Shown piece after piece: positions 1-17,459 of a DNA stretch of 64,000 bases. The notes under the pieces are model-generated. The model saw only the letters and a list, made by a program, of their open reading frames with translations. It was not told the origin of the DNA and ran no database searches. The stretch is taken from NCBI RefSeq assembly GCF_033723955.1, contig NZ_CP137555.1, positions 434,001-498,000 of the forward strand, read 5' to 3'. The translations under genes were made by a program, and so were the position numbers. Each line of letters begins with the position of its first letter. Position 1 is the stretch's first letter. The stretch is from Microbulbifer pacificus. GTDB lineage: Bacteria > Pseudomonadota > Gammaproteobacteria > Pseudomonadales > Cellvibrionaceae.

Positions 1-1
1 G

Positions 2-247
2 CCCTACGAGCAGTTCATGCGCGACTGGGACACCCGCAATAACAACGAGCCGTTCTGGGGCACGCTGCACGACCTGGATCTGTTCGAGGCGATGGAACAG
101 GCCGGATTTGCACGAGAAAACATCACCACCCACGGCCTGTTCGCGGTGGTGGATGAAACCCTGTTTCCCAGTGCCGCCAAGGCGGCGGCAGACAGCGAAG
201 ACTACGGGCGCAAGCCGGCTTGGCATACCTATATCGCCAGCAAGTGA
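2..247 (+). CDS. C-terminal fragment of a protein, possibly a SAM-dependent methyltransferase
   Basis: The reading frame is open from the left edge of the window, so only the last 81 residues are seen. The visible part, with an aromatic and acidic stretch around YEQFMRDWDTRNNNEPFWG and the segment LHDLDLFEAMEQAGF, resembles the C-terminal end of class I methyltransferases. No SAM-binding motif is in view, so the function is a guess. It is followed after 39 bases by a small coiled-coil gene on the same strand, so the two may be co-transcribed. Confidence 0.5.
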   Translation, partial: PYEQFMRDWDTRNNNEPFWGTLHDLDLFEAMEQAGFARENITTHGLFAVVDETLFPSAAKAAADSEDYGRKPAWHTYIASK

Positions 248-286
248 TACGCAACGACGACCCAAGGAATGATGCGGAGTAAGGCC

Positions 287-682
287 ATGACCATTGACCC
301 GATCGACATGGCGGGCACCAAGGCCCGGGGCAAGCGCCCGGTGTTTTTCAAGGACGCGGATACCGATCGACTGCTATCGATGCTGATGGCGCTCGCCGGA
401 GAACTCGCGGTCGCCCGCGAGCGGATCGATACGCTTGAACGCCTGCTGCAAGCCCGCGAGCTGCTGCAACGTACCGATATTGAAAACTACGAGCCCGACA
501 CCGCGGCCGCCCGCGAACGCGGCCTCTGGCACCAGGAATTTATCGCGCGAATTCTGCGGGTGATCCAGCAGGAAATCGAACAGTTCGACGAAGACCGCGA
601 AGCCCGGCAGCAGGCGCGCAAGGAAAATGTCAGTGCGACCACGGAGCTCGAGGAACTTATCGAAGAGCTGGCAAGTAATTGA
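287..682 (+). CDS. Small coiled-coil hypothetical protein
   Basis: About 131 residues with no signal peptide or membrane segment. The middle (residues about 25 to 65) and the end are rich in Glu, Arg and Leu and look coiled-coil. I do not recognise a family. Three in-frame ATGs lie close together (269, 272, 287); the last is preceded by GGAG at a good distance and was chosen. The gene ends 28 bases before a strong terminator hairpin. Cytosolic location is inferred. Confidence 0.6.
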   Translation: MTIDPIDMAGTKARGKRPVFFKDADTDRLLSMLMALAGELAVARERIDTLERLLQARELLQRTDIENYEPDTAAARERGLWHQEFIARILRVIQQEIEQFDEDREARQQARKENVSATTELEELIEELASN

Positions 683-764: not shown

Positions 765-1586
765 TTACTTCTCCGGCCAGCGAAATTGCGCGCGGCGCCG
801 TTCGAGAAAAGCGGCACTGCCCTCGCGGAAATCACCGCCGGAAAACGCGTCGTCAAACGCTTGTCGCAATGTTGCTTCATCGATTTCAGATTCACCGCCA
901 TGCCCAGTGAGATAATCCAGCGTGGCCTTGGTCCAGCGCAGGGAATACTGGGAGTTTTCCAGCAGGCTCCGCACCAGCTCGCCCTCTTTGCTTTCCAACG
1001 TGGGAGCTTCTGCCAGGTGCTGCACCAGCCCGATCTGCTGCGCCCGCGCAGCGGAAACCGGCAACCCCGTCAGCAACATATCCCGCGCATTGGCCGCACC
1101 GACAACATTCACCAGTCGCCGGGTGTCCAGCAGGCTGTAGAGAACGCCCAGCTTCGCCGGCGTGATGGCAAACGTCGCCGCGCTATCAGCCAGGCGAATA
1201 TCGCAGGCCAGCGCCAAACCACAACCGCCGCCATAACAGGCACCGCGGATGACCGCCAGTGTTGGGCGCGGCAGCTGCTCAAGCTTAAGCTGCACGTTGC
1301 GGATCAGTGCATTCTGCCGGCGCATTTCGGACGGGTTTTCCATGGCGGCGGTCAGTTCATCGATATTGGCACCGGCACAAAAGGCCCGCTTTCCGGCGCC
1401 GGTGACTAACACCGCGCGAATGCCATTATCTTCGGTCACGCGATCGAGTAGATCGGACAACTGTTGCCACATGGCCACCGTCATCGCATTGCGCTGGGCA
1501 GGGTTGTCGATGGTGATCCGCGCCAGGCCGCCTTCGATGGCAAAGCCAATTTTTGCGGTCGAAACCTGAGGTGCTTCCGTTGTCAT
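765..1586 (-). CDS. Crotonase-fold enoyl-CoA hydratase/isomerase family protein with atypical active site
   Basis: 273 residues, the usual length for the crotonase family. The oxyanion-hole segments are clear: AFCAGANIDEL near residues 69-78 and RGACYGGGCGLA near 114-125. The two glutamates that hydrate or isomerise in classical enoyl-CoA hydratase are absent: the GGGCEL glutamate is Gly (about 123) and the PE glutamate is Ala in TPAKLG. It is therefore probably not a standard 2-enoyl-CoA hydratase but a crotonase doing another acyl-CoA reaction (isomerase, decarboxylase, hydrolase or C-C lyase). It is the last gene of the leftward operon and starts 24 bases after the amidase stop. ATG at 1586 is preceded by GGGGGAGAGGGAAGG. 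Confidence 0.85.
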   Translation of the reverse strand: MTTEAPQVSTAKIGFAIEGGLARITIDNPAQRNAMTVAMWQQLSDLLDRVTEDNGIRAVLVTGAGKRAFCAGANIDELTAAMENPSEMRRQNALIRNVQLKLEQLPRPTLAVIRGACYGGGCGLALACDIRLADSAATFAITPAKLGVLYSLLDTRRLVNVVGAANARDMLLTGLPVSAARAQQIGLVQHLAEAPTLESKEGELVRSLLENSQYSLRWTKATLDYLTGHGGESEIDEATLRQAFDDAFSGGDFREGSAAFLERRRAQFRWPEK

Positions 1587-1609
1587 CCTTCCCTCTCCCC
1601 CGCCTGACT

Positions 1610-2977
1610 TCACGCCATCTCGTTATAGGTACTGGACTTGCTGTGCAGCCACTGCTCCAACGCAACGCAGGTATCCAGCAATGCAGTTTCCGCACCCGCA
1701 CGGGCAATAATCTGTACACCGAATGGCAAGCCGTCACCGGACACACCCAACGGAATACTCGCCGCCGCCAGCCCCGCCATATTTACACACGCGGTGAGAT
1801 TGGCCTGATTCACCGGTGCGACCTGGCTAAATGGAAACGCGGTCTGCAATGTGGTCGGCGTCAGCAGGAAATCTACATCCTGCAATTGCCCGCGCAGCCA
1901 GTTTCCCGCCGTTTCAACCACGTCCTGAGCGCGGACCAGGTCCGGTGCGCTGCGCGCAGCGCCCCACTGCAACAAGCGCTGCAACTCATCGGAAAACAGC
2001 GCGGGCATCTGTGACAATTCATCTGCGAAGGTGACATTGGCCTCAGCCTCGCACATCAACAGGCCTGCACGCCGAAACGCCGAGAAATCGGTCTCTGCGA
2101 ATTTCCTACGACGCTGAACGGCGCCCGGCAATGCGTCCGCAAATCGCCGAAACGCCGCAGAAATATCTGCGGCCACACCCAACTGTTCAAAGTCGCCTAC
2201 AAGCGCCCAGTGTGTGGACGCCAGATCGGCGCGACCGAAAGCATCTTCTCCACCTGCGTCCTGTAAAAATGGCCAGAGTGCACGCAGGTCCCGGCTCGAA
2301 CGCGCCAGGGGGCCAACGGTATCGAGCTGCCGGCACAGTCGGGTGACACCATTGGTACTCACCGAATCCCGCCCCGGCTTGAGTCCACTGACACCACAGT
2401 AACTGGCGGGAATACGCACCGAGCCCATGGTGTCGGTTCCCAAGGCGAAGGCGCAGAGCCCTGCCGCTACCGCTGCAGCGGAGCCACCACTGGAGCCTCC
2501 GGGGGTAAAACCCGCGCGCAACGGATTCTCACAGCGCCCCCAGTGGGGGTTGTCGTTGGTGGCGCCGAGGGCAATTTCGTGCATGTTCAACTTGCCCAGC
2601 ACAATCAGCCCAGCCGCACGCAAGCGCGCGACGACCGCAGCATCCTCCCTCGCGATAGGTGCTACACCGCGGTAGCCAAGGCCATTGGCTGTCGGCATGC
2701 CGGCCACGTCGATGTTGTCTTTCACCGCAACGGTCAACCCATCGAACGGGGATAAGGTTTGCCCCATCCTCCGCCGTACATCGGCTGCCCGCGCCGCATT
2801 CATTGCACCTTCGCGGTCCAGGTAAACATACGCGTTGATGCTGTCCTTACTGCGTGTAATTGCAGCGAGGGTGCGCGCGGTCAGCGCCTGAATACTGAAC
2901 TCGCCCCGTTGCAGGCATGCCGCCAGCTCCGTCGCATCCTTGCTCAGCAAGTCATCACAAATGCCACTTTGAAACAT
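1610..2977 (-). CDS. Amidase signature family hydrolase
   Basis: About 455 residues. It carries the Ser-cisSer-Lys triad of the amidase signature family: Lys in VAVKDNID, the GGSSGGS loop, and the nucleophile Ser in DTMGSVRIPAS. The family usually has DTGGS or DIGGS, so Met at this oxyanion position is unusual and may alter substrate fit. Members hydrolyse C-N amide bonds in small molecules or in misacylated tRNA; there is no GatB or GatC here, so a catabolic amidase is more likely. ATG 2977 follows GGAAAAAG; a TTG at 3016 or ATG at 3004 would overlap or abut the upstream CoA ligase gene. In this operon it may open a cyclic imide or a substituted amide (inference). Confidence 0.88.
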   Translation of the reverse strand: MFQSGICDDLLSKDATELAACLQRGEFSIQALTARTLAAITRSKDSINAYVYLDREGAMNAARAADVRRRMGQTLSPFDGLTVAVKDNIDVAGMPTANGLGYRGVAPIAREDAAVVARLRAAGLIVLGKLNMHEIALGATNDNPHWGRCENPLRAGFTPGGSSGGSAAAVAAGLCAFALGTDTMGSVRIPASYCGVSGLKPGRDSVSTNGVTRLCRQLDTVGPLARSSRDLRALWPFLQDAGGEDAFGRADLASTHWALVGDFEQLGVAADISAAFRRFADALPGAVQRRRKFAETDFSAFRRAGLLMCEAEANVTFADELSQMPALFSDELQRLLQWGAARSAPDLVRAQDVVETAGNWLRGQLQDVDFLLTPTTLQTAFPFSQVAPVNQANLTACVNMAGLAAASIPLGVSGDGLPFGVQIIARAGAETALLDTCVALEQWLHSKSSTYNEMA

Positions 2978-3008
2978 AGGCTTTTTCCGAAGAAGAAAAC
3001 GCATAGAT

Positions 3009-4409
3009 TCAGTCAAACCGCCGGTCGATCAACCGCAACGGTTTCTGCCTGCGGTCGATCTCGGTCCACTGTGCAGTACCGCCGGCGGCCACCGGTTCCA
3101 CTCCCACTTCGATACCCAGCTTGCGTTTGAGTAGTTCCGCGCAGTGTACGGCAATTGCCGAATGCTGCTCCGTCGCCACACCCAGCTCCACCAACACCGT
3201 CAGGGTCTCGCGGCCGCTGTCGTCCCGCTCGGCAATACACACATATTCGCCGGTAAAACCCTCCAGCTCCGCCAGCATGCCGCCGATGCCGTGGGGATAC
3301 ACATTGATACCGCGCAGCTTGACCATATTGTCGGAGCGGCCGAGAAAACCGCGTATGCGCCTGAACGGCAGCTGGAACGGGTTTTCTCCGGGAATCTCCG
3401 AAGAGATATCACAGGTATTGAAGCGGATCACCGGGTAAATATCGTCCTTGTACAGGCAGGTGACCACCATATTACCGGTGTCCCCGGCGGCCACGGGTCG
3501 CCCGCTTTCTACATCGAGCAGCTCCAGGTAGTGGGCATCTTCCCACACGTACAGACCGTTCTGGTCCGGGCCTTCTGCGGCGATACAGCCGGTATCCGCC
3601 ACCCCGTACCAGTCGTAAAGCTTGGCGCCGCCCCAGGCTTCGCTCAATGCCGCGCGGGTTTCCTGACCGAGGTGGCCAATGATCATGTCGATGCGCAGGT
3701 CTTCGCCCGGCGTCAGGCCCATTTCTTCCGCGACACTGGCGAGCTTCTTGATGTAGTCCGCAAAGCCCACCAGCACATTCACACCAAAATCCCGCATCAA
3801 TTGCACTTGCTGCGCAGAGCGGGTTTCCAGGCCGGTACCGGCGGACAGAAACAGCGCATTGGTATAGCGTGTTACCGCCTCGCGGATATAGTGCCCGCCA
3901 TTGATCATGCCGTGGCCGTAGGTGGACTGCACCGTCGCCGCGGGCTTCAGCCCCATAAAGCGGTAGGCCCGCGCCACCAGCATGGCCTGAATCTCGCGAC
4001 CGCGCGGGCCAAAAATGATCGGCTGCGGCCGACCTGTGGTACCACTGGTGGTATGGAACACAATCGGCGGCCGCTTCTCCGGCGCCAACCCTTCCAGCCC
4101 GCTGAAATCGCCGATGGGCGGGAACTGCTCCACGCTGTGCATGATGTCGGATTTGGAAAAGACCGGCAGTTTTTCGATGTCATCGAGACTGCGGATATCA
4201 CCGGGTTCTACGCCGGTCTCGCCCCACAAACGCTGGTAAAACGGAATCTGCCAGCCGCGCGCCACCAGTTTCAGAAAGCGCTGGTTCTGCAGTTCCCGCA
4301 GCGCGTCCCGCGACATACCGGCGTAGGTTTCCAGAAAGGCGTCACCCAGCGGATAGTCCGCCAGCGCCTGCTGCACATCAAAACTCTCGAAATAACTTGG
4401 GTAAGGCAT
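3009..4409 (-). CDS. PaaK-like adenylate-forming CoA ligase
   Basis: 466 residues, like phenylacetate-CoA ligase. The AMP-binding P-loop TSGTTGRPQP is at residues 121-130, YDWYGVADTG forms the adenine/substrate region, and the C-terminal domain has the family's GRSDNMVKLRGINVYP hinge. It should activate a carboxylic acid to its CoA thioester using ATP. Typical PaaK partners for aromatic ring catabolism (paaABC epoxidase) are missing, so the substrate is probably another organic acid made by the neighbouring hydro-lyases. It lies in the middle of the leftward operon, with a 48-base gap to the upstream PrpD gene. Confidence 0.88.
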   Translation of the reverse strand: MPYPSYFESFDVQQALADYPLGDAFLETYAGMSRDALRELQNQRFLKLVARGWQIPFYQRLWGETGVEPGDIRSLDDIEKLPVFSKSDIMHSVEQFPPIGDFSGLEGLAPEKRPPIVFHTTSGTTGRPQPIIFGPRGREIQAMLVARAYRFMGLKPAATVQSTYGHGMINGGHYIREAVTRYTNALFLSAGTGLETRSAQQVQLMRDFGVNVLVGFADYIKKLASVAEEMGLTPGEDLRIDMIIGHLGQETRAALSEAWGGAKLYDWYGVADTGCIAAEGPDQNGLYVWEDAHYLELLDVESGRPVAAGDTGNMVVTCLYKDDIYPVIRFNTCDISSEIPGENPFQLPFRRIRGFLGRSDNMVKLRGINVYPHGIGGMLAELEGFTGEYVCIAERDDSGRETLTVLVELGVATEQHSAIAVHCAELLKRKLGIEVGVEPVAAGGTAQWTEIDRRQKPLRLIDRRFD

Positions 4410-4457
4410 GAAAAACCCGCGCTCGCTTCCAGTGGTTATCTTTAAATGGCCATCGAA

Positions 4458-5852
4458 TCAGATCATTGCTTCGACCGGTTGCCGTATGGCCGCCAGCAAC
4501 CCGGTTAATTCCGCAACAGATTCCAGTGAATCCAGCCGATCTATCCGGGCAATGATCGCGTGTGCGTTCTCGCTATCGAACGGCGTACGCGCCGAGACCA
4601 GGCAGCGCTGGAATTTGTCTAGCTGTCGCGCCCGGTCCAGAGGGTTTTCCGGATGACCGAGGATTGCCGCCATTTCCAGGCAATACTCGGTGCCGCCCTT
4701 GAGTTGCACGGTCACAGTCTGCGGCGCCAGTGCATTGGGGTCGTTACTGGCGGAAGGCACCATCATGACGCGCGCCGCCAATGCCCGGCGCTGCGGGTCG
4801 GACAGTGCCGCGGAATCAAAATCTTCCACCCCCACGTCGCCATACAGTAACAGCGTTGCTGCCACATAACCGATACACAGCCGCGCATAGTTCACGCTCA
4901 TTCCGGGCTGCATCGGGCGGTCCACCAGGCGGCGTACCAACGGCGGCGCCTCGATACGCACAGCTTCGATATCCGTTGCGGAAAAACCGTGGGCCGCACG
5001 CAACTGCATCAGTGCATCAAGGGTGCCGTGTGCCGCGCGCCCGGTGGGAAACGGTTTGTGGCTGACGCGGCAGATCTGCCACTCGCGACCGAGCCGTGAA
5101 AAAGCATCCGCGGCGTTACCGTCGGATTCCATGATCGAGAAGTAGCCAAAATCGCCGCTCAGAAAGCGACGCGGGCCTACCAGACCGAACCCCGCCATAT
5201 CTGCTGCGGTGACTGCATTGCGCGCATTGAAGGCCACCTGCATCGGCAGTACCGCCACGCCTTCAGTGTGCGCCTGCATGGTACCGCCGGTCTGGCTGTA
5301 AGCGATGGACATGGCCTGCAGGATTTTCTCGCGGTCGTAGCCGCGCAATTTGGCAATGCCCGCAGCGGCGCCAATACAGCCCGCCGTTCCGGGTCGGAAG
5401 AAGCGCATGGGTTTGCTGGCACTCATTCCCAGCACCGTGGCCACATCCACCGCCAGCGCCACGGCCAGCAGCAGAGAGCGGCCATCCACCTTTCGCGCCT
5501 CGGCATCCGCCAGTAGCGACGACAGGATCACTGCCATCGGATGCACCACCGCGTGCTCGTGCACGCAATCGAATTCCTGATTGTGGATCTGGAAGGCATT
5601 CACCATCGCCGCATGGGCAACCGGCAGGCGCGCGCCTGTACCCCAAACGGTGGCCATGCTCTCTTTTTCAGTGCTGCCCCACCCTTCTGCAGCCCGCAGA
5701 AGTTCGGCCGCCAATTCAAGGCGCGAACCGCTGATGCCAACACCGATCGAATCGAGAATAAATGTCTTGCACGCGCCTAATGCTGCTGGGTCCAGGTGAT
5801 GAAATTCTGCCCCGGCAACATGCTCGACCAGCTGCTGTTCGTACTCAGGCAC
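4458..5852 (-). CDS. MmgE/PrpD family hydro-lyase (second copy)
   Basis: 464 residues, the usual size for the MmgE/PrpD family, whose members include 2-methylcitrate dehydratase and cis-aconitate decarboxylase. Family landmarks are the N-terminal DSIGVGISG helix, GAAAGIAKLRG and the long all-helical domain. GTG at 5852 was chosen because GGGAG lies six bases upstream and the start overlaps the stop of the previous PrpD gene by eight bases, suggesting translational coupling; a TTG further upstream is possible. The two adjacent PrpD genes are divergent in sequence, so they are old paralogues rather than a recent duplication. Confidence 0.85.
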   Translation of the reverse strand: MPEYEQQLVEHVAGAEFHHLDPAALGACKTFILDSIGVGISGSRLELAAELLRAAEGWGSTEKESMATVWGTGARLPVAHAAMVNAFQIHNQEFDCVHEHAVVHPMAVILSSLLADAEARKVDGRSLLLAVALAVDVATVLGMSASKPMRFFRPGTAGCIGAAAGIAKLRGYDREKILQAMSIAYSQTGGTMQAHTEGVAVLPMQVAFNARNAVTAADMAGFGLVGPRRFLSGDFGYFSIMESDGNAADAFSRLGREWQICRVSHKPFPTGRAAHGTLDALMQLRAAHGFSATDIEAVRIEAPPLVRRLVDRPMQPGMSVNYARLCIGYVAATLLLYGDVGVEDFDSAALSDPQRRALAARVMMVPSASNDPNALAPQTVTVQLKGGTEYCLEMAAILGHPENPLDRARQLDKFQRCLVSARTPFDSENAHAIIARIDRLDSLESVAELTGLLAAIRQPVEAMI

Positions 5853-7206
5853 AATTCGCTCCCAGTGCGCGCAGCGCGGCAAACAAGTTGCCGAGTTCCT
5901 TTTGCTTGACCAGGTTCAAGCCGATTTCAATCACGTCCTCCGCGCACTCTTTACTGACCGCAGCCGCGCTAAACAGCATACGCGCCTTGGTGACGATGTC
6001 CTCTTGTGTCATCGGCCACTCGGGATCGCCCCAGGCATCCCGCAAAATAATGTTCAGCACCGTATCGTCATTCAGCGTCACCAGTGCCGTCGCGCCAAAA
6101 TGGCCCGGGTAAGCGCGATCGTGTTCCTCATCCAGCACTACGGATACTATCTCCCGCAGCGCAACCACTTCCGACCGCTGCAGATAATCGCTTTCGAAGT
6201 GGGCAATGGTCGGCTTCCCGTGCAGCAGCGTAATGGCGGCACAGTGCTGCAGGCTGAAACGCGCCTCCGCCGGAGTCTTTGGCTGGGGCCGATCGCAGAA
6301 CTGCAGTGCATCGGAATACGTGCTTATCTGCAGCGAGCGGATGTCTGTATGGGAAATTTCACCCAGTGCACGCACCGCATCGATCGCCGGATGGGTGTGG
6401 CGACAAGCGGGCCAGGGTTTGAAACTGCACTGGAAAATCAGCCAGTTATCGACTCCGTTGTCGACCACGGCGAGTGGCATGGCCTGGGGGGAGGTCGCGG
6501 CAAAAAAGCCCTGGGTACCCTCCAACAGACTCGCCGGCCCGCGCAGGTTGCTTGCAGCCAGTAGTGCCGCCTGCACGCCGGCCTGCGCAGCACCGGCGTT
6601 GTGCAGCGGTTTGGTGTCCACCGCTTCGTGGCGCATCTGCCAGAAACCGCCGGTGCGGCTGCCGGCATTGGCGAGCGCCCACACGGTCTGCTCCGGATCG
6701 AGATTCAGTAATTTTGCCGCGGCCGCGGCAGCACCAAAGGAGCCACACGTAGAGGTGTTGTGATACAGCGCGTAATGATCTCGGCCGAGCGCGCGGCCGA
6801 TGCGGATCATCGCCTCGTAGCCCACCACAATGGCTTCCAGTAATGCCTTCGGTGTTGCTCGTACCATCTCTGCGACAACCAGCGCGGCGGGCACGATGAC
6901 CGGACCCGGGTGCAGGGTAGAAGTCCGGTGCACGTCGTCCATCTCGGCGATGCTGCCGAGTGTGCCGTGGTATTGCAGCGCATCCTGCCAGCTGCTGTCG
7001 AGTCCGCCGAGATTCCAGTATTCGCCTTTTGCGCCCCACTGGATCAGGTAATTTCGCAGCTTTGTCGCCACTTCACTGCGCGCGCCGTAGGCGGCACAGC
7101 CGAGCCAGTCGAGCAGGTGCTGTTGCGCCCGCTCCAGCGTCGCGCCGTCGATGTCACGTGCGAGCAGACTTACCAGCTGCTGCAGTAGCGTTGGGGGAAA
7201 CTTCAC
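5845..7206 (-). CDS. MmgE/PrpD family hydro-lyase (first copy)
   Basis: 453 residues with MmgE/PrpD features: LLDWLGCAAYG near the N terminus, EMDDVHRTSTLHPGPVIVPA (the region of the family's active-site His and Asp), GAAAAAAKLLNLD and the FKPWPACRHTHPAIDA segment. It would hydrate or dehydrate a tricarboxylate or methylcitrate-like acid. The start is GTG at 7206: GGAAGGAG lies seven bases upstream and GTGA overlaps the leuD-like stop by three bases, a classic coupling arrangement. Its place next to LeuCD-like genes suggests consecutive hydration and dehydration steps on a branched di- or tricarboxylic acid. Confidence 0.87.
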   Translation of the reverse strand: MKFPPTLLQQLVSLLARDIDGATLERAQQHLLDWLGCAAYGARSEVATKLRNYLIQWGAKGEYWNLGGLDSSWQDALQYHGTLGSIAEMDDVHRTSTLHPGPVIVPAALVVAEMVRATPKALLEAIVVGYEAMIRIGRALGRDHYALYHNTSTCGSFGAAAAAAKLLNLDPEQTVWALANAGSRTGGFWQMRHEAVDTKPLHNAGAAQAGVQAALLAASNLRGPASLLEGTQGFFAATSPQAMPLAVVDNGVDNWLIFQCSFKPWPACRHTHPAIDAVRALGEISHTDIRSLQISTYSDALQFCDRPQPKTPAEARFSLQHCAAITLLHGKPTIAHFESDYLQRSEVVALREIVSVVLDEEHDRAYPGHFGATALVTLNDDTVLNIILRDAWGDPEWPMTQEDIVTKARMLFSAAAVSKECAEDVIEIGLNLVKQKELGNLFAALRALGANCA

Positions 7207-7853
7207 AACAGCACTCCTTCCACACAATCTTCCATCGGTGCATAGGCCCAGGCGCGCGCTTTGCGCCGCGCCTGTTCAAAAACATCGATCTCCTTGCGCT
7301 GCCGCAGGGTCAGCGCAATCGGGTCCAGGCCATTTAACAGCAGGTATCGCGCGCTTTCTTCCAACGAAAACGGCCACAGCAAATCACCGCACCGCACCAG
7401 GCAGCACTGCAGGTCGATGGTGACCTGATTGTTTTGCGGGTCCTGCTGTACCCGTTCCGCCAGCGCCTCAATACTGTGCTCATCGAGACGGACCGGCAAA
7501 ATCCCGTTGCGAATACAGTTGGTGTGAAATATGGCCCCGAAGCCGCTGGCGACCACTGCGCGAATACCATATTCCGCCAGTGCCCAAACCGCGTGCTCGC
7601 GGGAAGACCCGCAGCCAAAATTGTCTAGGGCAACAAGAATTGATGTCCCGGTGTACTCGGGCTGGTTGAGGACAAACGCCGGATTACGTTCACGACCGCC
7701 GGGCAAGGTGTAGCGCCAGCCGGCAAACAGCCCCTCGCCGAGACCGCGCTTGGATACCCGTTTCATCTCCCGCGATGGAATGATCGCATCCGTGTCGATG
7801 TTGCGTCGCAGCAGAGGCGCGGCAATGCCGGTGTGGGTTACGAACGGCTTCAT
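7203..7853 (-). CDS. leuD-like: LeuD-like small subunit of an aconitase-family hydro-lyase
   Basis: 216 residues, close to LeuD (about 200). It has NIDTDAIIPSR, the swivelling-domain FGCGSSREHAVWAL motif and GFGAIFHTNCIRNG. It pairs with the large subunit encoded just upstream; ATG overlaps that gene's stop by four bases (ATGA). No leuA or leuB is present, so leucine biosynthesis is not implied by context. The same two-subunit architecture is used by dimethylmaleate hydratase and other alkylmalate hydro-lyases, which would fit a catabolic operon. Confidence 0.9.
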   Translation of the reverse strand: MKPFVTHTGIAAPLLRRNIDTDAIIPSREMKRVSKRGLGEGLFAGWRYTLPGGRERNPAFVLNQPEYTGTSILVALDNFGCGSSREHAVWALAEYGIRAVVASGFGAIFHTNCIRNGILPVRLDEHSIEALAERVQQDPQNNQVTIDLQCCLVRCGDLLWPFSLEESARYLLLNGLDPIALTLRQRKEIDVFEQARRKARAWAYAPMEDCVEGVLL

Positions 7854-9286
7854 GCAATCAGTGCCTCGCTGTTGACCAGTGCCTCGGCGGAGGTGATATA
7901 GCCGGTAATCGCCGAGGCAGCCACGGTGGTGGGGCTGGCCAGATGCGTACGGGTATTCGGCCCCTGGCGCCCCTCAAAATTGCGGTTGGTGCTGGATATC
8001 ACACGCTGGTGTTCCCCAAAGGTCTCCCCGCCGGCGTAAAAGCACATGGAGCAGCCGGAATCTCGCCACTCAAAACCGGCTTCGACAAAAATTCGGTCCA
8101 GCCCTTCCCTTTCCGCTTCGCGTTTTACCCGGCGCGAGCCCGGCACCACCACGCCCCGCACGCCGGGTGCGATGTGTCGCCCATGCACCACCGCTGCGGC
8201 GGCACGCAGGTCGCTGATACGGCTGTTAGTGCAGGAACCGATAAACGCGGCATTGATGGGAATGTCGGCAATCGCCTGCCCGGGTTGCAGCGCCTGGTAA
8301 TCAAGCGCGCGCTGGGCGGCTTCCCGGCGATGCAACTCCTCAAAATTTTCAGGATCGGGAATATGCTCGTGTAATCCGGCCACCTGTTCAGGGCTGGTGC
8401 CCCAGGTCACCATGGGCTTGATCAGGCTGCCATCGATACGCAGCTCGCGATCGAACGCCGCGTCGTCATCGCTGCGCAACGTACGCCAGTAACTGCAGGC
8501 ATCTTCCCAGTGCTCGCCCTTGGGCGCGAAATCGCGGCCGGCAAAATAAGCTTCCACTTTCTCGTCCGGCGCGATGATGGCGGTAAACGCAGAAAACTCC
8601 ACTGCCATGTTGCACAGGGTGAAGCGAGCCTCCACCGGCAACTGGCGGATCGCAGAACCAGAGAACTCCACCGCATAACCCGCACCGCCGTTGGTGCCGA
8701 ACTGGGCGATCAGATACAGCACCAGATCCTTGGCGGTAACGCCGGAGCGCAGCTCGCCATCGACAATCACACGCATGTTTTTTGGCTTGCGCACCCGCAA
8801 TGTGCCGGTGGCCAGCGCATGCTCTGCTTCGCTCGAGCCAATGCCCCAGGCCAGCGCACCGATACCACCCTGGGTACAGGTATGGCTGTCCGGGCAGACC
8901 AGGGTGAGGCCCGGCAACAACAGTCCCTGCTCAGGACTGATCACATGCACGATGCCCTGATCAGCATCATTGACGTCAAACAGGCGAATATTGGCCGCGC
9001 GGGTTTCACTGCGGGTGGCCAGGATAAAGTCCGAGCCGGAGGGCATCAGGGTTTTGTCGCCGCGCCCGGGAAAGGTGTCGACGATATGGTCCATGGTACA
9101 GAACACCCGGCGCGCATCCCGCACCTCGTAGCCTGCCGAGTGCAAACTCTGCAACGCGATGGAACCCGTCCTCTCGTGCAGGAAGACGCGGTCGAGATAT
9201 AACAGGGTTTCGCCGCTGTCGAGATCACAGACGGTGTGATCCGACCACAGTTTGTCGAACAATGTGCTTGCGCCGGATATCGCCAT
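7850..9286 (-). CDS. leuC-like: LeuC-like large subunit of an aconitase-family [4Fe-4S] hydro-lyase
   Basis: 478 residues, close in length and layout to bacterial LeuC. Iron-sulfur ligands are the Cys in FIGSCTNSRISDLR and the CxxC of SGCSMCFYAGGETF. TMDHIVDTFPG, GDSHT-type PDSHTCTQGG and NRNFEGRQG are also present. The stretch after the CxxC (FYAGGE) differs from the usual LAMNND of LeuC, suggesting altered specificity. It is the first gene of the leftward seven-gene operon; ATG 9286 follows GGAGGG. The likely reaction is stereospecific hydration or isomerisation of an alkyl-substituted maleate or malate in the cytosol. Confidence 0.9.
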   Translation of the reverse strand: MAISGASTLFDKLWSDHTVCDLDSGETLLYLDRVFLHERTGSIALQSLHSAGYEVRDARRVFCTMDHIVDTFPGRGDKTLMPSGSDFILATRSETRAANIRLFDVNDADQGIVHVISPEQGLLLPGLTLVCPDSHTCTQGGIGALAWGIGSSEAEHALATGTLRVRKPKNMRVIVDGELRSGVTAKDLVLYLIAQFGTNGGAGYAVEFSGSAIRQLPVEARFTLCNMAVEFSAFTAIIAPDEKVEAYFAGRDFAPKGEHWEDACSYWRTLRSDDDAAFDRELRIDGSLIKPMVTWGTSPEQVAGLHEHIPDPENFEELHRREAAQRALDYQALQPGQAIADIPINAAFIGSCTNSRISDLRAAAAVVHGRHIAPGVRGVVVPGSRRVKREAEREGLDRIFVEAGFEWRDSGCSMCFYAGGETFGEHQRVISSTNRNFEGRQGPNTRTHLASPTTVAASAITGYITSAEALVNSEALIA

Positions 9287-9388
9287 ATTTACTACCCTCC
9301 TGTACCCTGCAGTCAGGCCAGATCTTTTATCTCATCATTTGATATATTATTATAACATTAGATCTTTGAGAACAGCGATTTGCCATCA
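9287..9388. promoter_or_regulatory. AT-rich divergent promoter region with AGATCTTT direct repeats
   Basis: This 102-base gap separates the two divergent units. AGATCTTT occurs at 9320-9327 and again at 9360-9367, 40 bases apart, flanking an AT-rich core. A perfect minus-strand -10 (TATAAT) lies at 9354-9349, though no good -35 is seen. The repeats could bind a regulator shared by both units. No regulator gene is in the cluster. Confidence 0.4.
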
Positions 9389-10273
9389 ATGAGCATTACA
9401 GAGCAAAAACCCCAACTCGGCCCCTGCACCATTGCAACCCTGGCAAGCCCGGAGGCCGCACGACTGGTAGACGACTACTGCAGCCACCTGCAGTGCCAGG
9501 TACTCGCCAGTGAAAACCTGACCCCCGGGGTTGCCGAACAATGGGGATGCCAAAGCCTTGAATACGCACGCTGCTGGCTGCTCGGCAACAGGCTCGGGCA
9601 ACCCTGGCTGCGCCTTATTGAAGACGCCGCTGCCCAGCCCATCGCCCCCCTCTCCCGCGCCGGCTGGATGTCCCTTGAGATATTGGTAGAAGACCCGGAT
9701 GTACTGGCAACAGCGCTCGCGTCTTCACCATTCAAGGTACTGCGCCCCGCCGCCAACCTGGAGCTCAGCGACAAGATACGCGCGGTTCAAGTGCAGGGTC
9801 CCTGCGGTGAACTGCTGTACCTCACCCGGATTGCCGGCGAGGTGCCGCCGTTCCAGCTGCCGCAAGCACGCTGTGCCGTCGACCACCTGTTTATTCCAGT
9901 GCTGGCGAGCCGCGATCGCTCCGCCTCGTTGGCCAATTACGAATCCCTGGCGCAGCACCGCGGCCTCAGTTTTGATACCAAGGTTACGGTGATCAACCAG
10001 CTGCGCGGGCTGCCGCTGGAGCAGACACACCCGCTGGCCACACTCCAGCTGGCCGACAGCACCCTGATAGAGATCGACCAACTGGAAGACCTGGCGGAGG
10101 TGCCCGCGCAAACCGATAGCCTCGGCGGCGGTATTGCCATGATGACGTTTATGATCAATCGCCTGCCCGCCGGTGCCGTGACCTATCGCCACCGGGAAGC
10201 CCCTTATGACGGTCGACGCAGCTGTACGGTATACGGCCACGACGGTGAGCGGATCGAACTGATTGAGCGATAA
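9389..10273 (+). CDS. VOC-like two-domain protein of unknown function
   Basis: About 294 residues. The stretch SLEILVEDPDVLATALASSPFKVL followed by IRAVQVQGPCGELLYLTRI has the beta-alpha-beta-beta-beta rhythm of vicinal-oxygen-chelate (glyoxalase or extradiol dioxygenase) modules, and the second half seems to repeat it (VDHLFIPVLASRD). Metal ligands cannot be assigned with certainty. ATG at 9389 was chosen over a TTG nine bases upstream. It is the first gene of the rightward unit containing the RCC-reductase homologue; a ring-opening or isomerising role on a tetrapyrrole fragment is speculation. Confidence 0.65.
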   Translation: MSITEQKPQLGPCTIATLASPEAARLVDDYCSHLQCQVLASENLTPGVAEQWGCQSLEYARCWLLGNRLGQPWLRLIEDAAAQPIAPLSRAGWMSLEILVEDPDVLATALASSPFKVLRPAANLELSDKIRAVQVQGPCGELLYLTRIAGEVPPFQLPQARCAVDHLFIPVLASRDRSASLANYESLAQHRGLSFDTKVTVINQLRGLPLEQTHPLATLQLADSTLIEIDQLEDLAEVPAQTDSLGGGIAMMTFMINRLPAGAVTYRHREAPYDGRRSCTVYGHDGERIELIER

Positions 10274-10336
10274 GCCGCAACGAGTACGAGAAAAAACACT
10301 AACCGAACAATAAAGACAGCCAAAGACGAGAAGACC

Positions 10337-11110
10337 ATGCCCTACCGCACCATTCGCGGACATATCCGCTACACCAGCCGCAAACCCGATCGCCTGGGCC
10401 ACGAACGCGGCCGGGAATTTTTCAGCATTACCCAGCAGGCGGACGGCATCGATGTACTGCAGGCTCACTGTGAAATCGACGACACCCCCAGTGTCACCCG
10501 CGACATAGTGCAGGCACTGCGACATTCCGATTCGGCGCCGCTGGACTGCTCGGTACGCCTGACCGTCGGCGACCGCTTCGAGGGCACCGGCTGGTTCCGT
10601 TTTACCGACAAACAGGCGGAGTGCGAAACCTTCAACCACCGGGATGGCCGTATCAGCCAGCGCATCGAACTCACCGCACCGGTGCAGTGGATGCAGTGCC
10701 ACCCGATTGCCGGCGATGCGCTGTTGATGCGCCTGTACGACCCCTCCCAGGGCCCCGGCAAGCAGCACTTCCCGCATATGATGCTGTCGTCACCGGACCA
10801 CCGCGGTGCCACCGGGCCACTGCTGTTCAAGATGGGGTTTTCCCTGGTGTATGTGGGCGAGACGGAAATCACCGTGGAGGCTGGCACTTTCCGTGCACGC
10901 CACTTCCAGGTTACAGACACCGCAGCCGACCTTCCGGAGGAGCACCCGCCCTACAACGTCTGGTGCACCGCGGACGACGACTACCTGTTCTTGCGTGCAG
11001 AAGTGGAGGGATACATGCAGACCCGCTACGAGCTGGCGGAAGTGCAGTATTTTGAATCCCGCGGCGGCGTCACCAGCGCGCAGCACCCGGCTGTCGAACC
11101 GGCGATCTGA
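10337..11110 (+). CDS. DUF3108-like beta-rich hypothetical protein
   Basis: 257 residues, no signal peptide. The pattern VGETEITVEAGTFRARHF, then a VWCTADDDYLFLRAE segment and a tyrosine-rich end, is the pattern seen in DUF3108-type beta-barrel proteins. ATG 10337 is preceded by GAGAAG. It lies 63 bases after the VOC-like gene and 99 bases before the SDR gene, so it is probably in the same operon. Family placement is by pattern only and the role is unknown. Confidence 0.7.
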   Translation: MPYRTIRGHIRYTSRKPDRLGHERGREFFSITQQADGIDVLQAHCEIDDTPSVTRDIVQALRHSDSAPLDCSVRLTVGDRFEGTGWFRFTDKQAECETFNHRDGRISQRIELTAPVQWMQCHPIAGDALLMRLYDPSQGPGKQHFPHMMLSSPDHRGATGPLLFKMGFSLVYVGETEITVEAGTFRARHFQVTDTAADLPEEHPPYNVWCTADDDYLFLRAEVEGYMQTRYELAEVQYFESRGGVTSAQHPAVEPAI

Positions 11111-11209
11111 CACCTTACCCCCTGGCCGGAATTGACAATGGTCAATGCGGCCCATCCCCCCTCGCCTAGTATCTGAGCGGATTAATACCCTCAATGGCGG
11201 GAGACAATA

Positions 11210-12076
11210 ATGAGAATACTGATACTGGGCATGGGGCACGTGGGCAAGGCCCTGAGCCAACGCCTCCGCGACAACGGCCACGAGGTCATCGGTTCCACAA
11301 CCACACCGGAAAAAGTCGACGCGCTCAAGCCGTTCGCGGACGAAGTCGTGGTACTGAAGGGCCACGAGTCCGACAAGGTCGCCGCGGCGGCCGCGGGGGT
11401 CGACCTGATCGTGGTCACCGTCGCTCCCAATGTGAGAAATACCCGCACTCCGGAAGAGCGCCACCAGCATTATAAGCAGACCCTGGTGGATACCTGTACC
11501 AGCGCCGCCGCCAGTTGCGAGCGGATGATTTTCCTGTCGTCTTTCTCCGTATACGGCGACGGCGGCGAAGGCAGCACCCCCATTACCGAAGACACCCCCA
11601 CCAGCAACCACGAGGAACCCTCCTCCCTGTATTACCAGCAGGCGGAGCAGCACATCCTTTCCCGCAGCGGCGGTTGCGTGTTGCGTTTCCCGGACATGTA
11701 CGGCGCGCCGGGCGACCTGAGCTTCCCCGAGCGGGTAAAACTGGCGCACTCCTATTTCGGCGGCAAGGCACTGTTCGGCGCCGATGCCCTGCTCTACGCG
11801 ATTCACTTTGAGGATGTGGTCGGTGCGGTGGCCCACGCGATCGACCACCAGCTCAGCGGCATTTTTAATGTGTGCGACAACGAACGCATTCCGGCCACCA
11901 ATGCCCGCGTATTTGACGCCATCTGCGATGCCGAGGGACTTACACGGCTGGAATTCCTGAACCAGATCAAGGCGCCTAACCGCCGGATTTCAGCGGAAAA
12001 AATCTACGGCACCGGCTACCGCGTCGCCCACGGTGATCCCAATGCGGCCTATTTGCAGGAAAGCGAAACGGTCTGA
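11210..12076 (+). CDS. NAD(P)-binding extended SDR-like (epimerase family) protein
   Basis: 288 residues. The Rossmann motif ILGMGHVGKAL starts at residue 4, followed by the family's LSSFSVYGD and an HFEDVVGAVAHAI motif near residue 200. The catalytic Tyr-xxx-Lys pair of SDRs is not evident: the place where it is expected reads SSLYYQQAEQHIL with no lysine. It may be a binding or atypical redox protein. GGGAG precedes ATG by seven to eight bases. It sits directly upstream of the RCC-reductase homologue, 55 bases away. Confidence 0.8.
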   Translation: MRILILGMGHVGKALSQRLRDNGHEVIGSTTTPEKVDALKPFADEVVVLKGHESDKVAAAAAGVDLIVVTVAPNVRNTRTPEERHQHYKQTLVDTCTSAAASCERMIFLSSFSVYGDGGEGSTPITEDTPTSNHEEPSSLYYQQAEQHILSRSGGCVLRFPDMYGAPGDLSFPERVKLAHSYFGGKALFGADALLYAIHFEDVVGAVAHAIDHQLSGIFNVCDNERIPATNARVFDAICDAEGLTRLEFLNQIKAPNRRISAEKIYGTGYRVAHGDPNAAYLQESETV

Positions 12077-12131
12077 GAGAAAGGCCAAAAACAATAACTG
12101 TCCATCACCTGTGTGATCCATGAGGCGAGCC

Positions 12132-12941
12132 ATGAGTTCCGATACCAAAACTATTGACCAGTTCCTGTCAGAAAACCCTAATGTGGACGTGAGCAAAGCG
12201 TGGGAGCGCTGCTGGGGCATTCTCACCGACGTGAAACAGACCATCGCCAGCCGCTTTAGCGGGTTGGAGCTGGAGCCGGCCTGTCACGGCCGCGAATATT
12301 ACACCTCTCCCAACGGGGAATTCGAGGGTTCTTTCCAGGCCTGGAGCGGCGGTGACTGCGAGTGGCTGGTGAACTCCTGGCTGGGCAACCGCAAGGCCAG
12401 CATCCTCGATATGAACGCCACCGCCTATTTGGGGCAGAAGACCGACGTACCGCATTTCGTGATGGTCTTCGGCACCATCCCCAAGCTGTTTTTCTATTTT
12501 GATTTCATGCCCCGCCGCAACCTGCTGGTGGACAGTGCATACCTCGACAAGTACTACGCCCCGATCAATGACGAATACCTGGCACTGCGCGGCAACCCGA
12601 ATTTCCAGTGGTCTGTGAGCCACGGCCCCTACATGCGCGCACTGATCAACCCGTCCACCCAGAGCCTGATGGCCGACCTGAACGACGAAAACATCGATAT
12701 CCTCGAGGATTACGCCCGCCGCATGCTGGCCCACTGGCTGCGCTGGTACGACGAAGCCGAGCCGCTGGCAGCAAGCGAGCGCGAAGCACTGCGCCGCGAC
12801 GACCACCAGCTGCGCCGCCTGTGCTACGAGCGCGACCCGATGAACAAACTGGCCACCAAGGTATTCGGTGAAGAAGGTGTTCAGCAGATGCTGACCCTGC
12901 GGATGGGCGCGGAGCAGATGCGCCGCGCGGTAGAGGTATAA
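12132..12941 (+). CDS. Red chlorophyll catabolite reductase (RCCR) family protein
   Basis: 269 residues, about the size of mature plant RCCR. Recalled Arabidopsis RCCR aligns by eye over most of the length: SPNGEFEGSF with plant NPNGSAEASL, NSWLGN with GSWIHC, FDFMPRRNLLVDSAYLDKYY with LDLPHRKDLVLNPDYLKEYY, and LRRDDHQLRR...KVFGEE with ERRDKSFRR...RMFGEE. RCCR is a ferredoxin-dependent bilin-reductase-fold enzyme that reduces red chlorophyll catabolite, a linear tetrapyrrole. In my alignment the functional Asp291 of the plant enzyme corresponds to Asp235 here, while Glu154 is replaced by Val112. ATG 12132 with GAGG upstream is preferred to an ATG at 12120. Lacking a transit or signal peptide, it should be cytosolic. 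Neighbours fit small-molecule catabolism. Confidence 0.8.
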   Translation: MSSDTKTIDQFLSENPNVDVSKAWERCWGILTDVKQTIASRFSGLELEPACHGREYYTSPNGEFEGSFQAWSGGDCEWLVNSWLGNRKASILDMNATAYLGQKTDVPHFVMVFGTIPKLFFYFDFMPRRNLLVDSAYLDKYYAPINDEYLALRGNPNFQWSVSHGPYMRALINPSTQSLMADLNDENIDILEDYARRMLAHWLRWYDEAEPLAASEREALRRDDHQLRRLCYERDPMNKLATKVFGEEGVQQMLTLRMGAEQMRRAVEV

Positions 12942-12958
12942 GTCCTAAAAAATCCGGC

Positions 12959-13666
12959 TTAATCCTGCAGTGGCGGAGCGTCCGCTTCGCCCTGCAGAAG
13001 CTTGGCCAGGTACTCCGGCGTGATCATGGTGCAGTAATGGGTACCCATAAAACTGTCGGGCACCGGCATGAAACGGCGATACTCCACATGCAGTACCTTG
13101 GTACGCAATTTCAGCGTATCGCCCTCACTGTAGGCCACCTGATACAACTCCGGGCGCAGCCACAACGGGCCGATAAACACACTGTCCTCCTCCGCGAGTG
13201 CAACACGATCGCGGGATAAAAGGTCAACTTTGCCCTGAGCCTCCAGTTCCCCGTAGACATCATCCAGCATCAGCGCCTGCCACTTCTGGCACTCGCGATC
13301 CTCATCCGCGATGCGGATTTCGCTCATGCCCGCGTTGGCGATACGGATACGTTCGGCGGTTTTCATCTTGCAGGCCACGGTGACTGGATAATCCGCGCGT
13401 TCGCCGTCGGCGAATTGATAGCGAACATACTGGTGGGTGGTCAGTGGCTGCGCCAGCGGTTTGGACTTCTTGAACCCGGTCCAGTAGCTGTCTTCCTCGT
13501 ACAGTATATTTTCCACCGGCATATCCGTGCCGGCGATAAACTGCTGCATACGCGCACAGAAGGCCTCGTCCGTTGTCAGTGGATCGGCACCCGTCGTCGC
13601 CGACTGCGCCTGTGAGGCGATCCCAAGCAGGATCGAAATGAATCCGAAGGTACGAAATACGTTCAC
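12959..13666 (-). CDS. Secreted or periplasmic hypothetical protein
   Basis: 235 residues starting at GTG (13666) with GAGG eight bases upstream. The first 22 residues (MNVFRTFGFISILLGIASQAQS) form a Sec signal peptide with a probable AQS-A cleavage site. The mature protein is mixed alpha/beta with four cysteines and many charged residues; no family is recognised. It is on the opposite strand, wedged between the RCCR homologue and the alpha/beta hydrolase, 18 bases from the RCCR stop. Whether it belongs to the same pathway is unknown. Confidence 0.7.
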   Translation of the reverse strand: MNVFRTFGFISILLGIASQAQSATTGADPLTTDEAFCARMQQFIAGTDMPVENILYEEDSYWTGFKKSKPLAQPLTTHQYVRYQFADGERADYPVTVACKMKTAERIRIANAGMSEIRIADEDRECQKWQALMLDDVYGELEAQGKVDLLSRDRVALAEEDSVFIGPLWLRPELYQVAYSEGDTLKLRTKVLHVEYRRFMPVPDSFMGTHYCTMITPEYLAKLLQGEADAPPLQD

Positions 13667-13850
13667 TCAATCTACCTCGCAGGCAGGGAATTAAAATGGT
13701 CTTGCGCACAGGTTACGCCGGGATGGGAATTACGGATCATGGATACCGCAACTCCCGGCGACATGAATTGACAATTATCAATCCGCGACAGCAGGCAGCT
13801 CGATAATCTCGAATCAGGAAACCCCAAGCAATATTTCCAGGCCGTTCTTT

Positions 13851-14831
13851 ATGTACATGACTCGCAGTATTTTCGATGCCTTCAAAGTAGATTCCCTGCA
13901 GCCCCCCTACGATACGGGCATTGCCAGAATTTACTACCCCGGCCAATTCGGGGACACCATCGAAGAGCGCAGAACCGGTGTTGTCCCGGTGGACGAAACC
14001 ATGGCTCCCTGCCCGGTGATGATCCTGTTCCAGGGAATGAATACCGACCCCTCAGGCTACCGCTGGCTGGCAGAAGCCCTGGCACCTTCCGGTATCGTGA
14101 CCGTGACCTACCAGCTGGTGGCCGAGGAAATGCCCGGCCACGTGACGGCCACTCCGGGGATGGACATACTGGCTCTTACCCCGGGCGATTTTGGCAAACG
14201 GCCATCCGCCATCGCCCTGCCCGCCATCCTCACCATGCTTGAGCGGTTGAACCGCAACGGGGTACTTGCCGGCAAACTGGACCTGAACCGTATTGCCCTC
14301 GGCGGCCACAGTGCCGGCGGCATGCTGGCACTGCTGAATGCGCGCCCGTGCTGGTTTCCCGCAGTGCGCGCGGTGTTCGCCTATGGTGCCCATACCGGCG
14401 CGGCCACCGCGTTGGGTTGGCCCGATGAAACCCTGCTGCCAATCAGTGCAGATATTCCCGTGCTTTTGATTGGCGGCGACAAGGATGGCTGTATTGCCCA
14501 AAGTGCCGCCGGTTATGGCTCGTCAAACGCAAGCGCCACAGACCGCGTCGAGCAAACCTTTAACAAAGCCGTGGCGGAGAATGGTGGCAAAAACACACTG
14601 CTGCTACTCCGAGGTGCCAACCATTTTTCTATCTGTACACCACCTGATGAGACATGCGGCCGGGGTTACATCGACTTTCCCGCCGACTCAGACACTGGTC
14701 GCCTTGCGGCAGGTCGCGCTATCGCCCTTTTTCTGCGGTGCCATCTTTGCGGAGATACGGAGGCGCAGGCCAAGTATCTGGAACTGTGCGACGTCGACCA
14801 CCAATCGATACTCAAACTCTTACACAAATGA
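13851..14831 (+). CDS. Chlorophyllase-like alpha/beta hydrolase
   Basis: 326 residues. The nucleophile elbow GGHSAGG is at residues 151-157 (Ser154); candidate acid is Asp in IGGDKDG (about 216-218) and candidate His is in RGANHFSICTP (about 263). The layout CPVMILFQGMNTDPSGYRW then GIVTVTYQLV matches the chlorophyllase / PET-hydrolase-like branch of the fold. Chlorophyllases remove phytol from chlorophyll; substrates of bacterial relatives are often unknown. No signal peptide is seen, so it is probably cytosolic. Its closeness to the RCCR homologue makes a tetrapyrrole ester a plausible substrate (inference). The start lacks a good ribosome site; ATG 13857 is an alternative. Confidence 0.72.
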   Translation: MYMTRSIFDAFKVDSLQPPYDTGIARIYYPGQFGDTIEERRTGVVPVDETMAPCPVMILFQGMNTDPSGYRWLAEALAPSGIVTVTYQLVAEEMPGHVTATPGMDILALTPGDFGKRPSAIALPAILTMLERLNRNGVLAGKLDLNRIALGGHSAGGMLALLNARPCWFPAVRAVFAYGAHTGAATALGWPDETLLPISADIPVLLIGGDKDGCIAQSAAGYGSSNASATDRVEQTFNKAVAENGGKNTLLLLRGANHFSICTPPDETCGRGYIDFPADSDTGRLAAGRAIALFLRCHLCGDTEAQAKYLELCDVDHQSILKLLHK

Positions 14832-14865
14832 GTTAACCCAAGTGCTTGCACCTGTCCGGCGTCAA

Positions 14866-15978: not shown

Positions 15979-16015
15979 AGCCCTTGCAAGTGGCAACGGA
16001 AATTATTCATGCGCT

Positions 16016-17449: not shown

Positions 17450-17459
17450 TGCAACCACC

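Follow-up and report, generated by a model that had tools for sequence, protein, structure and literature searches.

Gene content of the locus

The window analysed here is the 64,000-nucleotide stretch G000:C1:434001–498000 of the Microbulbifer pacificus genome, a single contig of 4.19 Mb. By comparison with relatives, we identified in it the right-hand 15 kb of a gene island of ~63 kb and ~60 genes (G000:C1:385675–448831), a further 48 kb of which sits to the left of the window. The island combines a LeuCD-type hydro-lyase pair with imidase-family hydrolases and RCCR-fold proteins, and we read it, with a probability of roughly 0.55, as a catabolic route for linear tetrapyrrole fragments that includes a maleimide-type lower module. 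Island genes are numbered 28–89; some numbers, for example 41, denote a shadow frame of the actual gene (in that case 41b). The comparison set comprised 144 genomes of the family and the wider set 369 genomes of the class, individual genomes being given G-numbers. We refer to the second-type LeuC represented by window gene 83 as LeuC2 and to genes 39, 40 and 41b as the trio. The island genes within the window (window positions) are the following.

1..247, plus strand: gene 75, 3' end of an S-adenosylmethionine (SAM)-dependent methyltransferase that starts left of the window; island gene
269..682, plus strand: gene 76, small protein that reaches no family cut-off; conserved in the island
765..1613, minus strand: gene 77, crotonase-fold protein; both presumed catalytic glutamates absent
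1610..3016, minus strand: gene 78, amidase (PF01425); GGSSGGS motif present
3009..4409, minus strand: gene 79, PaaK-type CoA ligase; family match
4458..5882, minus strand: gene 80, MmgE/PrpD protein; family match
5845..7227, minus strand: gene 81, MmgE/PrpD protein; family match
7203..7853, minus strand: gene 82, LeuD-type small subunit of a proposed dialkylmaleate hydratase; family match
7850..9286, minus strand: gene 83, LeuC-type large subunit of the second LeuC clade; GSCTNS and CxxC kept
9380..10273, plus strand: gene 84, protein without a family; adjoins LeuCD also in RCCR-negative G039
10337..11110, plus strand: gene 85, no family above cut-off; in 13 of the 14 RCCR genomes and in G038 and G039
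11210..12076, plus strand: gene 86, SDR of the epimerase type; in distant genomes a neighbour of RCCR
12120..12941, plus strand: gene 87, RCCR homologue (PF06405)
12959..13666, minus strand: gene 88, protein without a family; conserved in the island
13851..14831, plus strand: gene 89, alpha/beta-hydrolase-like protein with GGHSAGG; right edge of the island

In the group of seven genes on the minus strand (765–9286), gene ends lie close together or overlap. The amidase, LeuCD-type pair, two MmgE/PrpD proteins, PaaK-type CoA ligase and crotonase that the first-pass annotation had named in this leftward group all match their families, as do the RCCR homologue and the SDR on the other strand. The crotonase is indeed atypical: at the two positions that we take to hold the catalytic glutamates, in the motifs GGGCE and QPE, all 12 sequences, its own included, read GGGCG and ITP[AS]. 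A scan of 9200–9480 for promoters and terminators gave nothing informative.

Conservation of the island among relatives

RCCR (PF06405) was found in 14 of the 144 family genomes, the source included, and these belong to three genera. The first-pass annotation had suggested looking for the same gene set in other genomes, and the 13 other RCCR-positive genomes carry most of the island or, in G069, about half of it; 11 of them have nearly the full set. The set is spread over ~150 kb of one contig in G066, G069 holds about half of the island in its main region and part at a second locus, and genes 86 and 87 are not in the stretches compared of G064 and G065. Three main gene orders were seen. The window-like order, in either orientation, occurs in G080, G095, G067, G074, G068 and G007, with small changes in G064, G065 and G066; the order is rearranged in G102, G094 and G069 and fully shuffled in G114, the set being kept in G102, G094 and G114 and half of it in G069. 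Because the set survives this shuffling of order, the island genes likely act together.

Within the source genus, the 12 RCCR-positive genomes among 48 are the same 12 that carry LeuC2. One further gene shows the same distribution: gene 70 (G000:C1:428115–429086), which encodes a 323-residue protein of no family, is present in exactly the 14 RCCR-positive genomes of the 144 and is 80–97% identical between genomes; its AlphaFold model is poor (predicted local distance difference test, pLDDT, 36).

The LeuC of the window belongs to a clade of its own

LeuC 83 matches PF00330 with 508 bits, and the Fe-S cysteine motifs GSCTNS and CxxC are kept in all 11 LeuC2 orthologues taken. Both of the best-fitting NCBIfam 3-isopropylmalate dehydratase models of LeuD 82 score above cut-off, as do two of three for LeuC 83, which would be expected if an ordinary leucine operon had been misread. 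We give this explanation a negligible probability. The proposal of the first-pass annotation depends on the pair not being the sole isopropylmalate isomerase of the genome, and this is the case: another LeuC and LeuD are encoded at G000:C1:903977–906048, to which the window proteins are 48% (LeuC) and 42% (LeuD) identical. The gene beside that pair, at 902875–903948, is LeuB-type, recognised by eye only, and later served as the LeuB query. Whereas a LeuC at E ≤ 1e-50 is present in 143 of the 144 family genomes, LeuC2 (61–100% identity) occurs in only 16, namely all 14 RCCR-positive genomes and two of the 130 others, G038 and G039; the remaining LeuC matches, among the matches listed, are 46–50% identical. 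In a tree of 30 LeuC sequences, a 100/100 branch separates the 13 LeuC2 proteins from the 17 other LeuCs. A LeuB-type gene lies within 1.5-kb flanks of 11 of 16 other LeuC loci but of none of 12 LeuC2 loci. We therefore rejected the pair as a leucine-pathway LeuC beside LeuB; given the other LeuCD in the genome and the separate LeuC clade, leucine synthesis is not the role of the window LeuCD. The pair would instead hydrate a dialkylmaleate, as dimethylmaleate hydratase (DmdAB) does.

RCCR and LeuCD are thus conserved together, as the proposal also requires, in 14 of 14 RCCR-positive family genomes, with LeuC2 at a locus separate from RCCR in G069. The LeuC2 of that genome groups with Parahaliea (100/100), although G069 belongs to the source genus, and this suggests horizontal transfer. 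The LeuC2 of G199 forms a long branch in the tree. Ten further genomes with island-type RCCR were compared, eight of which have LeuC2 at 57–66% identity; one of them, G152, is the same as G114, so that the count of new genomes is seven of nine.

Partners of the LeuCD pair

The genes found together with LeuC2 encode an isochorismatase-type amidohydrolase, a pair of PuuE/imidase-family hydrolases, one CaiB CoA-transferase and one HMG-CoA-lyase-type lyase, and this association extends to genomes that lack RCCR. LeuC2 lies within ~15 kb of the trio in G039, G069, G144, G148 and G199, and within ~15 kb of CaiB gene 73 and HMG-CoA-lyase-type gene 72 in G039, G069, G144, G147 and G151. The second locus of G069 joins LeuC2 to genes 39, 40, 41b, 43, 52, 53, 72 and 73, and RCCR-negative G039 joins it to 39, 40, 41b, 43, 72, 73 and 84, with 85 lying 20 kb off. 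In Halioglobus japonicus BC5_1 (G144), the genes form the run 52-83-82-73-72-49-43-41b-40-39 with Rieske gene 28 nearby. Shorter runs are 39-40-41b-83-82 in G148, 82-83-41b-40-39 and 81-80-79-78 in G199, 72-73-82-83 in G147 and G151, and 52-53-83-82 in Litorivivens. Gene 40 is rare, being found at E ≤ 1e-60 in five of the 369 class genomes, its own included; all four of the others hold 39, 40 and 41b together, and a LeuC lies within 20 kb of the trio in G199 and, as a divergent LeuC in two frames, in G518. In G521, LeuC2 is on the same contig as the trio, ~53 kb away. The LeuC homologue beside the trio in G518, at G518:C1:625308–626698, is split between two frames and may represent a frameshift, a pseudogene or two subunits.

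Gene 39 was assigned to the isochorismatase family from the 97% identical G095 copy. Genes 34, 40 and 41b match PF01522 above cut-off and TIGR03212 (PuuE) below it in all three cases, and gene 34 matches PuuE allantoinase (PDB 3cl6) with E 2.7e-69. Cyclic imide hydrolases are described as related to the PuuE/polysaccharide-deacetylase fold (PMC9304392). Imide hydrolysis is accordingly a predicted activity of 40 and 41b, whose genes, ~36–38 kb left of the window, likely encode the imide openers; they are likelier candidates for this role than the window amidase, whose assignment to it is unsupported.

Candidates for later steps are also encoded in the island. Genes 72 and 52 belong to the HMG-CoA lyase subfamily (NCBIfam PRK05692, 329 and 284 bits against a cut-off of 246), and the GGCP loop is present in 12 of 12 orthologues of each. 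Genes 73 and 53 encode CaiB CoA-transferases; mesaconate and glutarate CoA-transferases are among their best models, none of which reaches its cut-off. Gene 49 adjoins RCCR gene 48 and encodes a lyase of the isocitrate-lyase superfamily. It matches the solved 2,3-dimethylmalate lyase 3fa3 with E 2.6e-43, and petal death protein, an enzyme that prefers 2-ethyl-3-methylmalate, is its second-best solved match. K[KR]CGH is present in 13 of 13 orthologues of gene 49; in its EGGx[ST]P motif, VEGG is found in 14 of 14 sequences, its own included, and resembles IEGG of petal death protein, the other four chains compared, methylisocitrate lyases among them, having TEFG.

This enzyme inventory bears on the direction of the pathway. 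That the island builds up, rather than degrades, a tetrapyrrole- or pyrrole-derived compound would suit methyltransferase 75, the SDRs and HapK-like gene 36, but it is highly improbable in view of the C–C lyases among the genes searched (two HMG-CoA-lyase-type, one RipC-like and one PrpB-like) and of eight amide/imide hydrolase-family proteins (34, 39, 40, 41b, 45, 58, 63 and 78); in the part of the island gene set that was searched, neither a carrier-protein gene nor a synthase gene was recognised. For degradation, we consider the lower, maleimide-type module probable.

RCCR-fold proteins and a proposed link to tetrapyrroles

The tetrapyrrole source is inferred from three RCCR-fold paralogues and their linkage. 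Gene 87 matches PF06405 with 52 bits (cut-off 24.9) and PDB 3agb with E 1.7e-11, and gene 48 also matches PF06405 above cut-off. The third RCCR-fold protein is encoded by gene 62, outside the window, and reaches PF06405 only at E 0.0036, below cut-off. A model of it (mean pLDDT 84) matched the PDB folds of Arabidopsis RCCR, PebA, phytochromobilin synthase, PebB, PcyA and PebS at E 3e-9 to 2e-5. Bilin or RCC enzymes made up 43 of the top 45 fold matches, and the other two were chains of chloroplast motor complexes. Profile comparison gives gene 62 a link to gene 48 (97.5%) and a weak one to gene 87 (74.9%). Two residues of Arabidopsis RCCR, Glu154 and Asp291, are presumably functional, in a numbering that we set from the F218V entry. 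The equivalent of Asp291, in the motifs ERDP, LDP and FDP, is present in all 12 sequences of gene 87, all 13 of gene 48 and 13 of the 14 of gene 62, each count including its own sequence and excluding the 26–32% paralogue matches of G064, G065 and G114, with equivalence set by alignment for 87 and by motif for 48 and 62. No acidic residue aligns with Glu154 in gene 87.

A scan of named genomes gave 47 RCCR loci in two groups. The first group holds 19 loci at 59–93% identity, from Microbulbifer, Halieaceae, Spongiibacteraceae, Litorivivens, Aestuariicella, a Nevskiaceae metagenome-assembled genome (MAG), Paraferrimonas and unclassified MAGs, and 18 of these also carry 86, 46, 47, 28, 70 or 89 in their flanks. 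At L128 (Paraferrimonas sedimenticola), RCCR stands beside the itaconate-like genes 30–36, and that genome has no LeuC2.

The Rieske protein of gene 28 was considered as a pheophorbide a oxygenase (PaO) and rejected: only Rieske and VanA_C are above cut-off, and there is no match to the PaO C-terminal domain. Turnover of the cell's own photosynthetic pigment was also discarded, Photo_RC being found in none of the 14 RCCR-positive genomes. Because neither a photosynthetic reaction centre nor a Pfam heme oxygenase was found in these genomes, the pigment substrate would come from outside the cell.

Possible alternative substrates

Several observations weigh against a tetrapyrrole route. The trio occurs in the RCCR-negative genomes G518, G318, G199 and G039, without LeuC2 in G318 and with the divergent two-frame LeuC in G518. 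LeuC2 is missing from two genomes with island-type RCCR, G149 (Paraferrimonas; 47% and 44% matches only) and G150 (a MAG; 51% only). The second group of RCCR loci (28 of the 47; 45–52% identity, other MAGs) has no other island gene above 35% identity, and the loci of it that were examined sit in differing neighbourhoods. Genes 54 and 56 failed as candidates for maleate cis-trans isomerases, enzymes that have two catalytic cysteines; 54 has one cysteine at the motif and 56 none. On the upper side, no enzyme that would open the macrocycle was recognised, since gene 28 is VanA-like without a PaO match, and Pfam heme oxygenase is found in none of the 14 RCCR-positive genomes, a search that covered this heme-degrading family only. 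Finally, a plant study reports hematinic acid, not maleimides, as detected in leaves (PMC7318184).

Two side observations may be added. Several second-group loci (L129–L145, L147–L155, L157 and L158) stand, as judged by eye, next to GNAT-like and glycerophosphodiester-phosphodiesterase-like genes. L036 encodes two proteins of the EutA/arylmalonate-decarboxylase family (14161–14937 and 16262–17095), one of them without the motif cysteine.

LeuCD and the imidases are also found in genomes that lack RCCR (G039, G199 and, with a divergent LeuC, G518), so the lower pathway is not bound exclusively to tetrapyrroles. The imidase-LeuCD module might degrade cyclic imides or maleamates of another kind, such as those derived from pyridine, succinimide or hydantoin-type compounds, and RCCR might merely be co-located. 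Two RCCR-negative genomes, G039 and G199, have the module and two others, G518 and G318, have part of it. Genes 54–59, which include FAD monooxygenase, alpha/beta hydrolase, racemase-family and isochorismatase genes, resemble aerobic nicotinate clusters in layout. Among those of genes 54–59 that were searched, none reaches a nicotinate-pathway model, and 58 matches only general amidohydrolase models below cut-off. Against this alternative, LeuC2 is kept in all 14 RCCR-positive family genomes across three genera, and unsubstituted maleate would not need a LeuCD-type hydratase together with an HMG-CoA-lyase-type lyase. We regard this alternative as rather unlikely.

Doubtful to a greater degree is the possibility that the RCCR-fold proteins act on a non-bilin compound and that the island serves another aromatic or pyrrolic natural product. 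Gene 36 (G000:C1:393686–393997) matches HapK/REDY (PF11639), a family that we take to belong to prodigiosin clusters, and gene 31 resembles prodigiosin PigA, at a score far under the cut-off; that no enzyme opening a macrocycle was recognised points the same way. Against this stand the presence of three separate RCCR/FDBR-fold paralogues in a single island and the dominance of bilin or RCC enzymes among the structural matches of gene 62.

Proposed pathway

We return to the route for linear tetrapyrrole fragments. The first-pass annotation had proposed catabolism of tetrapyrrole-derived maleimides; the maleimide chemistry gained support from the PuuE/imidase pair and the amidohydrolase travelling with LeuCD, and the tetrapyrrole source stays at the level of inference described above. 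For the lower steps the enzyme families were identified and the substrate is deduced from them; the upper steps are deduced throughout.

In the upper part, bilin-type or dipyrrolic compounds would be taken up by MFS carriers and then reduced and oxidised to alkyl-maleimides or alkyl-succinimides by the three RCCR/FDBR-fold proteins, the Rieske oxygenase, flavin monooxygenases and SDRs. The imide ring would be opened by the PuuE/cyclic-imidase-family hydrolases 40 and 41b, perhaps also 34, and ammonia released by the isochorismatase-type amidohydrolase 39, perhaps also 58. LeuCD 82/83 would convert the resulting dialkylmaleate into a dialkylmalate, from which the class III CoA-transferases 73 and 53 would make a thioester, to be cleaved by the HMG-CoA-lyase-type enzymes 72 and 52 into a 2-oxo acid and an acyl-CoA. 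A lyase of this type would suit the product of LeuCD because a hydrated dialkylmaleate is a tertiary alcohol. Alternatively, lyase 49 may cleave the free dialkylmalate. Ethylmethylmaleimide would thus yield pyruvate and butyryl-CoA, or 2-oxobutyrate and propionyl-CoA, and hematinic acid would yield pyruvate and glutaryl-CoA, or 2-oxoglutarate and propionyl-CoA. A second branch, comprising the itaconate-type genes 29–33 and the PrpD/CoA-ligase/amidase/crotonase operon 77–81, would probably serve other ring types.

Parts of this scheme have counterparts in known systems. DmdAB and 2,3-dimethylmalate lyase belong to anaerobic nicotinate fermentation; the island resembles that system in pairing a LeuCD-type hydratase, here proposed to act on a dialkylmaleate, with an isocitrate-lyase-superfamily lyase (gene 49), but differs in its bacterial LeuCD-type subunits, linked imidase-family genes and alternative CoA-transferase/HMG-CoA-lyase route. 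With plant chlorophyll breakdown (PaO/RCCR) it shares the RCCR fold and family and a Rieske oxygenase, whereas its Rieske protein is VanA-like, its RCCR-fold paralogues number three and it has genes for carbon-chain cleavage. Genes 32 and 33 have as their best NCBIfam models the itaconate-degradation enzymes RipB and RipC; unlike in the Rip system, both fall below the curated cut-offs and lie in an island with imidase-family genes. The fungal and bacterial cyclic imide hydrolases HxnM and Pseudomonas putida imidase have the PuuE/polysaccharide-deacetylase fold and open the imide before amide hydrolysis (PMC9304392), whereas the island's imidase-family genes, for which this activity is predicted, are paired and linked to LeuCD. 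Clusters of pre-PcyA bilin reductases likewise place FDBR-superfamily genes in nonphotosynthetic bacteria; the heme oxygenase, globins and V4R proteins described for them (PMC10151467) were not recognised among the island genes searched.

In the literature that we could cover on bacterial RCCR, chlorophyll and pheophorbide degradation, hematinic acid, Microbulbifer bilins, dimethylmaleate hydratase and imidases, a partial coverage in which subscription journals were thinly represented, no such pathway was found; the papers on Microbulbifer bilins and dimethylmaleate hydratase were unrelated, and none was found on RCCR residues or petal death protein. We suggest, tentatively and at somewhat less than even odds, that the island represents the first complete set of bacterial genes for living on linear tetrapyrroles, leading from pigment remains through alkyl-imides to central metabolites. 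If so, chlorophyll, heme or phycobilin debris would be a carbon and nitrogen source for marine bacteria. Chlorophyll turnover is on the 10^12 kg scale per year, and there are reports of maleimides and hematinic acid in senescent leaves and lake sediments (PMC7318184). The island offers ~60 candidate genes and a separable lower module of ~8 genes; strains with the island or its relatives include Microbulbifer, Parahaliea maris and Litorivivens lipolytica, and the candidate substrates are simple.

Further genes, modules and borders of the island

The rightward genes had been described as a single divergent RCCR unit. We found instead that 84 and 85 follow LeuCD, also in RCCR-negative G039, and that 86 and 87 follow the RCCR module. 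In G069, 85 is not in the genome and 84 is not in the regions compared, from which the PrpD/ligase/amidase/crotonase operon is also missing. Elsewhere, genes 78–81 are linked to the trio in G199, and the itaconate-like genes 29–33 are linked to it in G318.

Two functional names in this part of the window found no support. Gene 84 had been called a VOC protein; a Pfam search as permissive as E 5 gave no match to it, and the sole match of its profile in the PDB is a chance-level glyoxalase chain (E 0.53). It may have a divergent VOC fold. Gene 89 had been called chlorophyllase-like, and its PF07224 match (E 0.14; 11.4 bits against a cut-off of 26) is, like every other Pfam match of this protein, below cut-off; it looks like a generic alpha/beta hydrolase. 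For gene 85, a profile search of the PDB gave nothing informative.

At its right edge the island ends with gene 89, and genes beyond it are lost in most relatives. The left edge is less sharp, gene 27 being matched in 11 of the 13 relatives and several of genes 17–26 in up to 7 of 13. To the right of the island, at window positions 14866–17458, PGA_cap and RtcB-like genes have no close match in the stretches of the relatives compared.

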